From Zetaproteobacteria bacterium CG1_02_55_237 (GTDB taxonomy: Bacteria > Pseudomonadota > Zetaproteobacteria > Mariprofundales > Mariprofundaceae), in contig MNXA01000040.1 in assembly GCA_001871195.1 (NCBI GenBank), positions 1 to 36,109 on the forward strand: 36,109 nt of DNA. The letters are read 5' to 3'. The notes beneath the pieces were generated by a model. The model made no database searches and was not told the origin of the DNA. It worked only from the letters and a program-made list of their open reading frames with translations. Every line of letters starts with the position of its first letter. The stretch's first letter is position 1. Shown here one piece after another: positions 26,452 to 31,345 of this stretch. Made by a program: the position numbers and the translations under genes.

Positions 26452-27231
26452 TTACAGGTAAAACGATGTCAGGATGTAGTCGAGCATCAGGATGCCGACC
26501 GAGGAAAGCACCACGGCCTGGGTCGTGGCCTTGCCGACGCCTTCAGTGGTCGGTGTGGCGCGATAACCGATATATGTACAGATAACGCCGATGAGAAAAC
26601 CAAATGCCACTGCCTTGATCCAGCCGGTATTGATATCGTGTGTCGTCACCTTGGCCTGCATTTCGGCAATGAAGGCGCCGGGGTTCACGCCCAACAACTC
26701 AACCCCGACCAGATAACCGGCTCCCATGCCGATCAAATCGAACAGGGCGATCAGCAGCGGCAGCACCAGCGTTGCTGCAATAATGCGCGGCATGATGATG
26801 CGTGCCCGCGGGTTTACCGCCATCATCTCCAGTGCATCAATCTGCTCGGTGACACGCATGATGCCGATTTCGGCGGTAATTGCGGAACCGGCACGCGCCG
26901 TCAGCATCATGGCACCAAGCACAGGACCCAGCTCGCGGATAATAGCCAGCGCGATACCGGCGCCAAGCATCGATTCGGAACCGAATTTAGCCAACGTGTA
27001 GTATCCCTGCAGGGCCAGAACCATGCCGGTAAAGGCGCCGGTCAGGGCGATAATCACCAGAGAACCAACACCGATATTAAACATCTGGATAACGATATGG
27101 CGACCCTGCCACGGGCGGGTCGGCAACAGGCCGAGCGAAGCGCTGCTCAGGCTTGTCGCATCGCCCAGACGCGAAACCATACCAAGAAAGCTACGCCCAA
27201 GACGGCCGAACATACTGATGACTGCCGTCAT
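26452..27231 (-). CDS. mlaE: MlaE, ABC permease for phospholipids
   Basis: The 259-residue integral membrane permease has about five to six hydrophobic segments. Signature regions are GSLVIIALTGAFTGMVLALQ, ELGPVLGAMMLTARAGSAIT, AEIGIMRVTEQIDALEMMAV and the C-terminal GVGKATTQAVVLSS. It forms the membrane part of the MlaFEDB complex. It overlaps mlaF by four bases. The order F-E-D-C is as in E. coli, but the STAS protein gene mlaB, which normally follows mlaC, is not found. Confidence 0.95.
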   Translation of the reverse strand: MTAVISMFGRLGRSFLGMVSRLGDATSLSSASLGLLPTRPWQGRHIVIQMFNIGVGSLVIIALTGAFTGMVLALQGYYTLAKFGSESMLGAGIALAIIRELGPVLGAMMLTARAGSAITAEIGIMRVTEQIDALEMMAVNPRARIIMPRIIAATLVLPLLIALFDLIGMGAGYLVGVELLGVNPGAFIAEMQAKVTTHDINTGWIKAVAFGFLIGVICTYIGYRATPTTEGVGKATTQAVVLSSVGILMLDYILTSFYL

Positions 27232-28037
27232 GGCTCAATCCTCACAGTGCCCGGCTTGTGCAGCAGATCGTCGACATAGGTAGTCGAACTGCGGGAAAAG
27301 GGAATCGGCCCATCCGGCCGGCCTTCGATGAACTGGCGCACGCGCGCATCCTCACTGTGCCGGATGTCATCGGCTGTGCCCTCGGCGATAATCTTGCCCT
27401 GCCACAACAGCACCACATGGTCGGCAATGCGCAGGCCCGCATCGACATCGTGTGTCACCACCACCGAGGTGTGATGCGACTTGATGCGCAAATCATGGAT
27501 CAGCGAGGTAATCACGCCTGCGGAAATCGGATCAAGACCGGAAGTCGGCTCATCGAAAAAGATAATCTCCGGATCCATGGCCATGGCACGAGCCAGTGCC
27601 ACGCGCTTGGCCATGCCGCCGGAAAGCTCGGAAGGCATCAGATGCTCCATGCCGCGCAGACCAACCTGCTCCAGCTTCATGGTGATAATTGTATGGATGA
27701 TGTCTTCGTCCAGATCGCTGTGTTCATGCAGGGTGAAGGCGACATTGTCATAGACATTCATCGAATTAAGCAGTGCAGAATACTGAAACACCATACCCAT
27801 GGATTGGCGTAATTCATACAAACGACGGCGCGACATATGAACAAAATCCTCATCGCCGTAGTAAATCTCGCCGCTCGTGGGCTTATCAAGACCGGCAATA
27901 AGGCGCAGCAGCGTGGTCTTGCCGGAACCGGAGCCGCCCATGATGACGGTCGTCTTGTGCGCCCGCACATGGATATCTACGCTATTGAGCGCAGCGGCAT
28001 CACCGAATATTTTTGTCAGCGCCTTGCAGCGGATCAT
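27228..28037 (-). CDS. mlaF: MlaF, ABC ATPase for phospholipid transport
   Basis: The 269-residue ATPase has Walker A GGSGSGKTT (34-42), signature LSGGM, Walker B IIFFDEPTSGLDP and the switch His in VVTHDVD. The ATG at 28037 (MIRCKALTK) is preferred to an upstream in-frame start at 28079 because GGAAGG lies nine bases before it and the family begins there. It is the first gene of the mlaFEDC-AsmA unit. A divergent pair with the small repeat protein is separated by about 220 bases that hold both promoters. Confidence 0.95.
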   Translation of the reverse strand: MIRCKALTKIFGDAAALNSVDIHVRAHKTTVIMGGSGSGKTTLLRLIAGLDKPTSGEIYYGDEDFVHMSRRRLYELRQSMGMVFQYSALLNSMNVYDNVAFTLHEHSDLDEDIIHTIITMKLEQVGLRGMEHLMPSELSGGMAKRVALARAMAMDPEIIFFDEPTSGLDPISAGVITSLIHDLRIKSHHTSVVVTHDVDAGLRIADHVVLLWQGKIIAEGTADDIRHSEDARVRQFIEGRPDGPIPFSRSSTTYVDDLLHKPGTVRIEP

Positions 28038-28255
28038 GTCACACAACCTTCCTGTCCTGACTCTGGTCATACACGGCAATCATCTTCTACCGGTGCAACA
28101 GCCTAGCGGATATGAGGGACGCGGCAATAGACACGACCCGGAGTAGAATGTCCACCTGCCGCGCATCACGGACAGGCATTATACTGGCCGGGCATCAGGC
28201 TGGCAGGCCTTCCTTACGTGAACCTTAAACAGCCTGATTGCAAAGGAGGTATGAC

Positions 28256-28636
28256 ATGACACAGCTGATACGGGCCTTATGTGTTTTCACCTTGTTGCTT
28301 TGTACGGGAATCCCGGCGGCTTCTGCCCATGATGCATCCATCAAAAGCATGGCTGGCATCATCATGCATCTGAATCATTTCCCGAGTGACAGTGAAAAAC
28401 ACGAACTGGAGGCCATTGCCAGCGATGAACATGTAACGCCAGGCGAACGCGCACTGGCCGGGGCACTGCTGCGCATGCAGCACACAGTTGAAGGTGAGGA
28501 CTCGGCTGCGCTGCGGGCGCTGGCTGTCGATAAAAACGCAAGCCAGGGGGAGCGTGAACTGGCCGATATCCTGCTGGGCATTCACCATCACCCATCGGTA
28601 AACGACCAGCAGCGGCTAAAAACCCTGAGCGACTGA
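28256..28636 (+). CDS. small exported protein with three 35-residue repeats, function unknown
   Basis: The 126-residue protein starts at 28256, just after a perfect AAAGGAGGT ribosome site; an upstream TTG in frame is rejected because it lies before that site. Residues 1-24 are a signal peptide (ending ASA). The rest is three repeats with an exact 35-residue period (from 32, 67 and 102). They share Leu-Ala/Met-Ala starts, an invariant His (41, 76, 111), a Leu (51, 86, 121), an Asp (57, 92) and Gly-Glu-Arg (63-65, 98-100); the third repeat is cut short. The helical, tetratricopeptide-like periodicity suggests a small solenoid, perhaps protein- or metal-binding given its His content (38, 41, 76, 110-112). 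I do not recognise a family. TATACT at 28180-28185 may be its -10 box. It is divergent from mlaF. Confidence 0.75.
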   Translation: MTQLIRALCVFTLLLCTGIPAASAHDASIKSMAGIIMHLNHFPSDSEKHELEAIASDEHVTPGERALAGALLRMQHTVEGEDSAALRALAVDKNASQGERELADILLGIHHHPSVNDQQRLKTLSD

Positions 28637-29847: not shown

Positions 29848-30354
29848 TCAGTCCGCAGCTTTGTCGGGCTCCAGATACAGATAGGTCAGTCCTCCACTAA
29901 CACCTGCGCCCTTGGTTGCGCTCAGACCAAGCGGCTCCAAAGACACACTCTTCTTGCTGCCGCCAATCAACACACCGGCACCAATACCGCGACCGATGGT
30001 TACATCTGCGCCCGCACCGAAATATTTGCCGGCGAATTTATATTCACCCTTCTTGAAATCGGCCGCCATCACCGCAAAGACAAAGTTCGAATCCTTGTCG
30101 AAGGTCAGGTCGACTCCCAGGCCAACACCGGTCTCACCCTTGTAATGTTCTCGTTCACCGGCTGTTGAGGTGAAGGTGCAGGTCACATCCACTGTGGAGT
30201 GAATCAGCAGATTGGTTCCCGAACCCGGCACGGTTTGGCATTCCAGCTTACCCAGCTTGGTCCCCTTGGTGGTTTCCATTGATTCGGCCGAAGCCAGCAA
30301 AGGCAGGGCCATCGCCAGCACCGTGAACATCATCATTTTAAAGATCATCTTCAT
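29848..30354 (-). CDS. DUF992 family exported protein
   Basis: The 168-residue protein has a signal peptide (about 1-23, ending LLASA). The mature part fits DUF992: LGKLECQTVPGSG, then two cysteines near VTCTFTS, HYKGETGVGLGVDLTF, GKYFGAGADVTIGRGIGAGV and SLEPLGLSATKGAGVSGGL. It is a glycine-rich beta protein, probably periplasmic or outer-membrane-associated. The family is commonest in alphaproteobacteria and has no known function. The ATG at 30354 is used (GGAG six bases ahead) rather than the GTG directly before it. It stands alone behind its own promoter. Confidence 0.8.
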   Translation of the reverse strand: MKMIFKMMMFTVLAMALPLLASAESMETTKGTKLGKLECQTVPGSGTNLLIHSTVDVTCTFTSTAGEREHYKGETGVGLGVDLTFDKDSNFVFAVMAADFKKGEYKFAGKYFGAGADVTIGRGIGAGVLIGGSKKSVSLEPLGLSATKGAGVSGGLTYLYLEPDKAAD

Positions 30355-30441
30355 CACTTTCTCCTTCGTTCATTGACTGTTTGCCCAGCTGCACAAGCAG
30401 TGTGCACCCATCGTGTCTCGCATTAGCGAGTCGCACCTTCT

Positions 30442-30603: not shown

Positions 30604-31206
30604 CTATTCTTTACTCCAGATACGTTCCAAAAACCGATCGCGACCGGAATTGTATCGGTAGTAGCGATAACGTAGCGGATTCTTGTCTGCGTAATCCTGA
30701 TGATAGTCCTCAGCTGGATAAAAGGTGGAGGCCGGCACGATGTCCACGACAATCGACTTGTCGAAATGACCGGATGCGGCCAACGTATCGCGCGATGCCT
30801 CAGCCAGACGTTTCTGTTCTTCGTTATGGTAGAAAATCACCGGGCGATACTGACTGCCGCGATCGGCGAACTGCCCGCCCGCATCCGTCGGATCAATCTG
30901 GCGCCAGAAGGTATCGAGCAGTTCCGCATATGAGGTTTTCTGTGAATCAAAGGTAATTTCAACTGCCTCGACATGCCCTGTACCTCCGGCCGACACCTGC
31001 TCGTAGGTAGGATTCGGCTGCAAGCCACCGGTATAACCAGAGACAGCGGACAATACACCATTGTGATGATCGTAAGGGTGCTCAACACACCAGAAACATC
31101 CACCGGCGAAGGTGGCTTTTTGCTCTCCAGCAACAACTGAATCAGCCATCGAGACCATGCCCGCGGAGCAAAGTAGCATCACTCCAAGTGTTGATTTCCA
31201 TGGCAT
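30604..31206 (-). CDS. msrA: peptide methionine sulfoxide reductase A with export signal
   Basis: The 200-residue MsrA reduces methionine-S-sulfoxide in oxidised proteins. The catalytic Cys37 is in [55 protein letters not shown] and [10 protein letters not shown] are the family blocks. About 26 extra N-terminal residues ([19 protein letters not shown]) form a signal peptide, placing the enzyme in the periplasm. ATG 31206 is six bases from AGGAGG; the ATG at 31212 is too close to it. It is a single gene, divergent from rnhA. It complements the redox-defence genes elsewhere in the window. Confidence 0.93.
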
Positions 31207-31345
31207 GTACATCCTCCTGAATATGCTTCAAATCACGCAAAAAAAGCTCAGTCAACTTATCTGCCTTACATGAAAAAAAAGTGAATTCCGACCTGACCTT
31301 CAGATACGGTGGCATTCAGCCGAGCTTGCCGTCACAATCGGCGAT

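Follow-up and report, generated by a model that had tools for sequence, protein, structure and literature searches.

The window analyzed here is a stretch of 36,109 nucleotides (contig MNXA01000040.1) from the 2.33 Mb genome of Zetaproteobacteria bacterium CG1_02_55_237. On its forward strand, positions 28256..28636 (stop codon included) hold an open reading frame with an ATG at 28256 and a TGA at 28636, which encodes a 126-residue, probably exported protein built of three repeats. The same frame is open in relatives at 44–58% identity; a first search turned these up in 6 further genomes from the window's family. A GGAGG ribosome-binding site lies at 28245..28249 on the same strand, 6 nt before the ATG; this is a good ribosome site, called near-perfect in an earlier annotation made from the letters alone (hereafter the sequence-only reading). 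The gene is divergent from an ABC gene at 27228–28079. When the window was scanned for promoters and terminators, none came up on the forward strand.

Residues 1–24 (28256..28327, forward strand) read by eye as a signal peptide. The precursor begins with MTQLIR, continues with a hydrophobic run, and reaches ASA|H, with the cut placed after ASA, which would leave a mature protein of 102 residues. A hydrophobic, export-like segment likewise opens 85 of the 87 family members whose N-terminus is complete. On the basis of these features, we infer that the protein is exported from the cytoplasm and is extracytoplasmic, or periplasmic, as the sequence-only reading had proposed. Three members (L123, L124, L138) branch off as a divergent group marked by two insertions of 3 residues each. 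At all three loci, an acylphosphatase-like gene (named by eye) lies 27 bp before the family gene. Two of the members, L123 and L138, carry a likely lipobox and are thus probably lipoproteins.

The 35-residue repeat and its protein family

When residues 28–126 are compared with themselves, the best offset is 35, with a BLOSUM62 score of +80 and 18 identities in 64. Shuffles of the same residues score −50 on average at this offset (SD 16); the best score over all offsets in 2000 shuffles is 26, and 0/2000 reach +80. The same offset ranks best in 90/90 collected family members. Self-comparison and the AlphaFold2 model place repeat 1 at residues 27–61 (28334..28438, helices 1 and 2), repeat 2 at residues 62–96 (28439..28543, helices 3 and 4), and a shorter repeat 3 at residues 97–126 (28544..28633, helices 5 and 6), all on the forward strand. 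His41/76/111, Leu51/86/121, and Ala33/68/103 are identical across all three copies. An acidic position is occupied by Glu47, Asp82, and Asp117, and Gly-Glu-Arg is present in two copies only (63–65, 98–100). The sequence-only reading had described three exact repeats with conserved His, Leu, Asp, and Gly-Glu-Arg. The period of 35 and the conserved His and Leu stand, but the copies differ from each other, the third is partial, the acidic site is Glu or Asp, and Gly-Glu-Arg occurs just twice. No tandem repeat was seen within the gene at the DNA level, which indicates that the duplication is old.

With either the window protein or the family profile as query, searches of Pfam, NCBIfam, PHROGs, and PDB sequences returned nothing over cut-off, and no Pfam model matched the window protein at E 10. 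The 17 zetaproteobacterial members matched eight Pfam families at E 1, none of them TPR, HEAT, or PC repeat models. One member, L092, weakly touches a TOG-domain model (E 0.028, below the model cut-off). Weak matches of single members to unrelated models, for example DUF6987 (8.5e-4, in 1 of the 17), were taken as chance. In addition, literature searches on Mariprofundus proteomes, zinc accessory proteins, UPF0147, and Zetaproteobacteria with ZnuA found no paper on the family. As judged from these sequence comparisons, the three-repeat proteins are a new, unnamed family; the sequence-only reading, which knew no family with this repeat, was right on this point.

Relatives are found in 21/78 genomes of the window's class, its own genome included. 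The 17 named loci belong to Mariprofundus, other Mariprofundaceae, or Zetaproteobacteria, with one record titled only Proteobacteria, and the carriers include Mariprofundus ferrooxydans PV-1 and strain EBB-1. In a phylum sample, a 7-row profile gave matches confined to the window's own family (21/398). Two other classes gave 0/48 and 10/385, the latter at E 0.03–0.08 and judged chance. In a third class, a 21-row profile matched 31/369 genomes. The hits in 29 of these had E values no higher than 3.1e-8; those in G846 and G109 were weak and were set aside, leaving 29/369. A range limited to Zetaproteobacteria was dropped as a result, and the earlier empty searches therefore do not prove absence. 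This third class is probably Gammaproteobacteria. In some orders most genomes carry the family (9/11, 3/3, 19/24), and some genomes hold three copies. The collected set comprises 90 family ORFs in 89 regions. The occurrence of relatives in its own class and in another shows that the gene is real and conserved. A mobile-element origin was also considered and rejected, since plasmids, phages, and viral contigs gave no match to the family.

The histidine trio and the predicted fold

The repeated histidines are encoded on the forward strand at 28376..28378 (His41, mature residue 17), 28481..28483 (His76, mature residue 52), and 28586..28588 (His111, mature residue 87). The sequence-only reading had called the histidine invariant, and this is borne out by His41 and His111 in 21/21 aligned rows and His76 in 20/21. 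Across 88 ungapped rows, from which L050 and L125 were excluded for a gap at one His site, all three histidines are present in 75, two in one (HNH), one in none, and none in 12. If the sites were independent, the expected counts for three, two, one, and no His would be 55.9, 27.4, 4.5, and 0.24, relatedness being ignored. L125, L050, and L051 were left out of one row set. The three histidines thus behave as a nearly all-or-none set, a suggestive pattern.

In a tree, the His-less rows fall into one clade of 11 and one long-branched row, so that their joint loss reflects about two events rather than twelve. Every His-less row belongs to genome family f358, several genomes of which also hold His-bearing copies. 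At one locus (L097, 8635–9575) two family genes lie in tandem, one with all three His and the other with none. In the 11 His-less rows compared, the former His sites hold various residues, K, E, D, G, T, A, and I among them. P43, L51, A68, D82, A95, A103, and L121 are invariant in 11/11 of these rows; L141, which is long-branched, was counted as His-less and excluded from this column comparison. Retention of the other structural positions in the His-less rows argues that the histidines are dispensable for the fold.

AlphaFold2 models of the window protein and its PV-1 homologue each consist of six helices arranged in three helix pairs, with a mean pLDDT of 94.9 and 95.1 respectively, from alignments that held the same 17 sequences. 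A helical repeat fold is thus predicted with confidence, in the form either of an open solenoid, as the sequence-only reading imagined, or of a compact closed bundle. A Foldseek comparison, the check which that reading had recommended, gave no PDB match with E below 0.001 for either model and no match below the same threshold among viral structures. The best VIA-align Z was 4.4 for the window model and 5.0 for the PV-1 model, the latter with an rmsd of 4.8 over 95 residues; in such tables the absence of a family is uninformative and no listed family proves membership. No PDB fold match from either program supports a metal site.

The models resemble TPR, HEAT, and PC (Rpn1/PSMD2) proteins in having two-helix repeats of about 35 residues. 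They differ in that neither the window protein nor the zetaproteobacterial members match a Pfam repeat model, and in the Foldseek and VIA-align scores given above (nothing below E 0.001, Z at most 5.0). UPF0147 (PDB 2qzg, 2qsb), likewise a small helical-hairpin protein, surfaced in both fold searches. Its query TM-score was 0.31 at best, with a Z of 3.3–3.4 over 53 residues for 2qsb, and the UPF0147 family was detected in three archaeal control genomes only. UPF0147 was absent from the window's genome, and this identity was dropped.

The models also bear on where the histidines would lie. In mature numbering, the only residues assigned to a DSSP bridge are 16, 18, 51, and 53 in the window model, flanking His17 and His52, and 16, 18, 86, and 88 in the PV-1 model, flanking His17 and His87. 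Since each model lacks any other E residue and a pairing of 16 with 18 is impossible, these residues must pair among themselves. The forced pairing therefore sets turn 1 against turn 2 in the window model and against turn 3 in the PV-1 model. Taken together, the models suggest that the three His-bearing turns converge.

Gene neighborhood

No partner gene is widely common to the 88 family genes, and neighbors differ at most loci. Zinc-uptake genes are present at 4/89 family regions, in two lineages. At L118, L133, and L135, all from one genus, zur-znuC-znuB is followed by the family gene on the same strand after a gap of 78–116 bp, and znuA is divergent from this run. The divergent promoter contains a 15/15 match to TGTTATANTATAACA, a perfect Zur-like palindrome. 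At L109, from another genome family in another order, znuA (PF01297, 5e-65) precedes the family gene by 100 bp on the same strand. By chance, well under one lineage with zinc genes would be expected among some twenty families, although this is a rough figure not computed by a tool and the metal theme was picked after inspection. The 23 window and zetaproteobacterial regions contain no zinc-uptake genes. Upstream of the window gene there is no Zur-like site (the best has 5 mismatches), and sites upstream of other family genes outside the three znu operons have 3 or more mismatches. With neither zinc genes nor a Zur site at hand, zinc is a guess for the window organism.

Several other neighbors recur at a few loci. 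At L096, L098, L107, L108, and L113, which span five genomes of four families, no more than 1.4 kb separates the family gene from one for a predicted beta-propeller protein (about 420 residues, uncurated), the orientation being variable. This predicted protein has weak YVTN/YncE similarity and no obvious signal peptide by eye, and it is present in 18 of the 33 genomes searched. In the window (29848–30357, reverse strand) and in a same-genus genome (L033, 6940–7428), the family gene is followed 1.2–1.4 kb downstream by a gene for a DUF992 exported protein (PF06186). A methionine sulfoxide reductase gene is a neighbor in the window (30604–31212, reverse strand; PF01625) and at L094, L095, and L141, a proximity across four loci which may be chance. 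Finally, in two genomes from a single genus, the family gene is divergent from an adjacent gene (L031, 1125–1754; L032, 8384–8998) for a membrane protein that contains a His-rich loop; the L032 copy has no Pfam match.

A candidate metal site

On this evidence, we tentatively favor, at slightly under an even chance, an extracytoplasmic metal-binding protein with a three-His site, the metal probably being zinc. Each of the three helical hairpins would present one His at the turn after its first helix, and packing of the hairpins would bring the three turns together around a single divalent ion, with zinc the likeliest metal. Where the gene lies beside an ABC importer, the protein may buffer or carry zinc, a role suggested by gene neighborhood in two lineages. 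Where it stands alone, as in the window organism, it may serve in general metal binding or buffering. The shared site, metal binding, the identity of the metal, and delivery or buffering are each things that we infer. The suggestion in the sequence-only reading that the protein might bind metal gains indirect support from joint His conservation, modeled turn contacts, and the zinc genes at 4/89 regions.

Known zinc accessory proteins provide a functional analogy. AztD, for example, is a beta-propeller. The new family shares with ZinT, ZrgA, AztD, and PA4063 its predicted secretion, its location beside zur/znu genes in some relatives, and conserved His that are likely ligands. It differs from them in its six helices and three repeats, and it has neither a His-rich loop nor a sequence match to a curated family. 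Among the features of a Zur/Znu accessory protein, export is thus predicted from sequence, and a zinc-uptake neighborhood is seen in relatives and not at the window. ZinT, ZrgA, AztD, and PA4063 bind zinc in the periplasm as parts of zinc-uptake systems (PMC9820375, PMC6689063, PMC8561739, PMC6103462); among these, PA4063 is reported to have a ferredoxin-like fold.

A quite plausible, if doubtful, alternative is that the protein is a small periplasmic alpha-repeat adaptor for a protein or peptide. The His of the H-x-P-S turn would then cap the first helix of the hairpin and be structural, and the three would co-vary because the copies pack alike. Repeats of this type, helical hairpins about 35 residues long, usually serve as binding scaffolds, and in copies 1 and 3 the His is at the end of the helix, with a conserved P-S/T turn following. 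The models have a weak fold likeness (Z under 5) to PSMD2/Rpn1, condensin CAP-G, and importins, and the lack of a widespread operon partner over the 88 genes is as expected of a general factor. However, the His-less clade keeps the other structural positions, so that the fold apparently does without these residues. Canonical TPR or HEAT stacks also usually yield clear Foldseek matches, in contrast to the result here.

It is improbable that a three-His site binds copper, iron, or haem in an enzymatic or redox role. The named carriers are relatives of iron oxidizers, and single loci place the family gene by other metal-related genes: at L101 an RND pump gene (PF00873) precedes it by 145 bp on the same strand, and mercury-type genes, identified by eye, are nearby at L110. 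The alignment, however, has no Cys- or Met-rich pattern and no CxxCH, and zinc provides the only recurring metal neighborhood. The lipid-binding role offered in the sequence-only reading, or an Mla-associated one, as the divergent ABC gene might suggest, is very improbable and a poorer guess than metal binding, given that neighbors differ at most loci and that no counterpart of mlaC, mlaD, mlaE, or mlaF of the window (named by eye) was reported among the 88 remaining regions of the family, where mlaF matches were listed only from 45% identity up.

Within the favored three-His reading, a more specific arrangement appears rather unlikely as a whole: the three hairpins would form a compact, near-threefold bundle whose single Zn(His)3 site arose by triplication of the 35-residue unit, leaving the His-less sister branch metal-free. 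If the three His do form one site, the family would be a clean natural case of a metal center made by internal triplication, with the His-less sister clade as a built-in control. If the zinc reading is true, the protein would be a new player in bacterial zinc uptake. For all its spread through one class and across several orders of a second, the family has no name in the libraries used.
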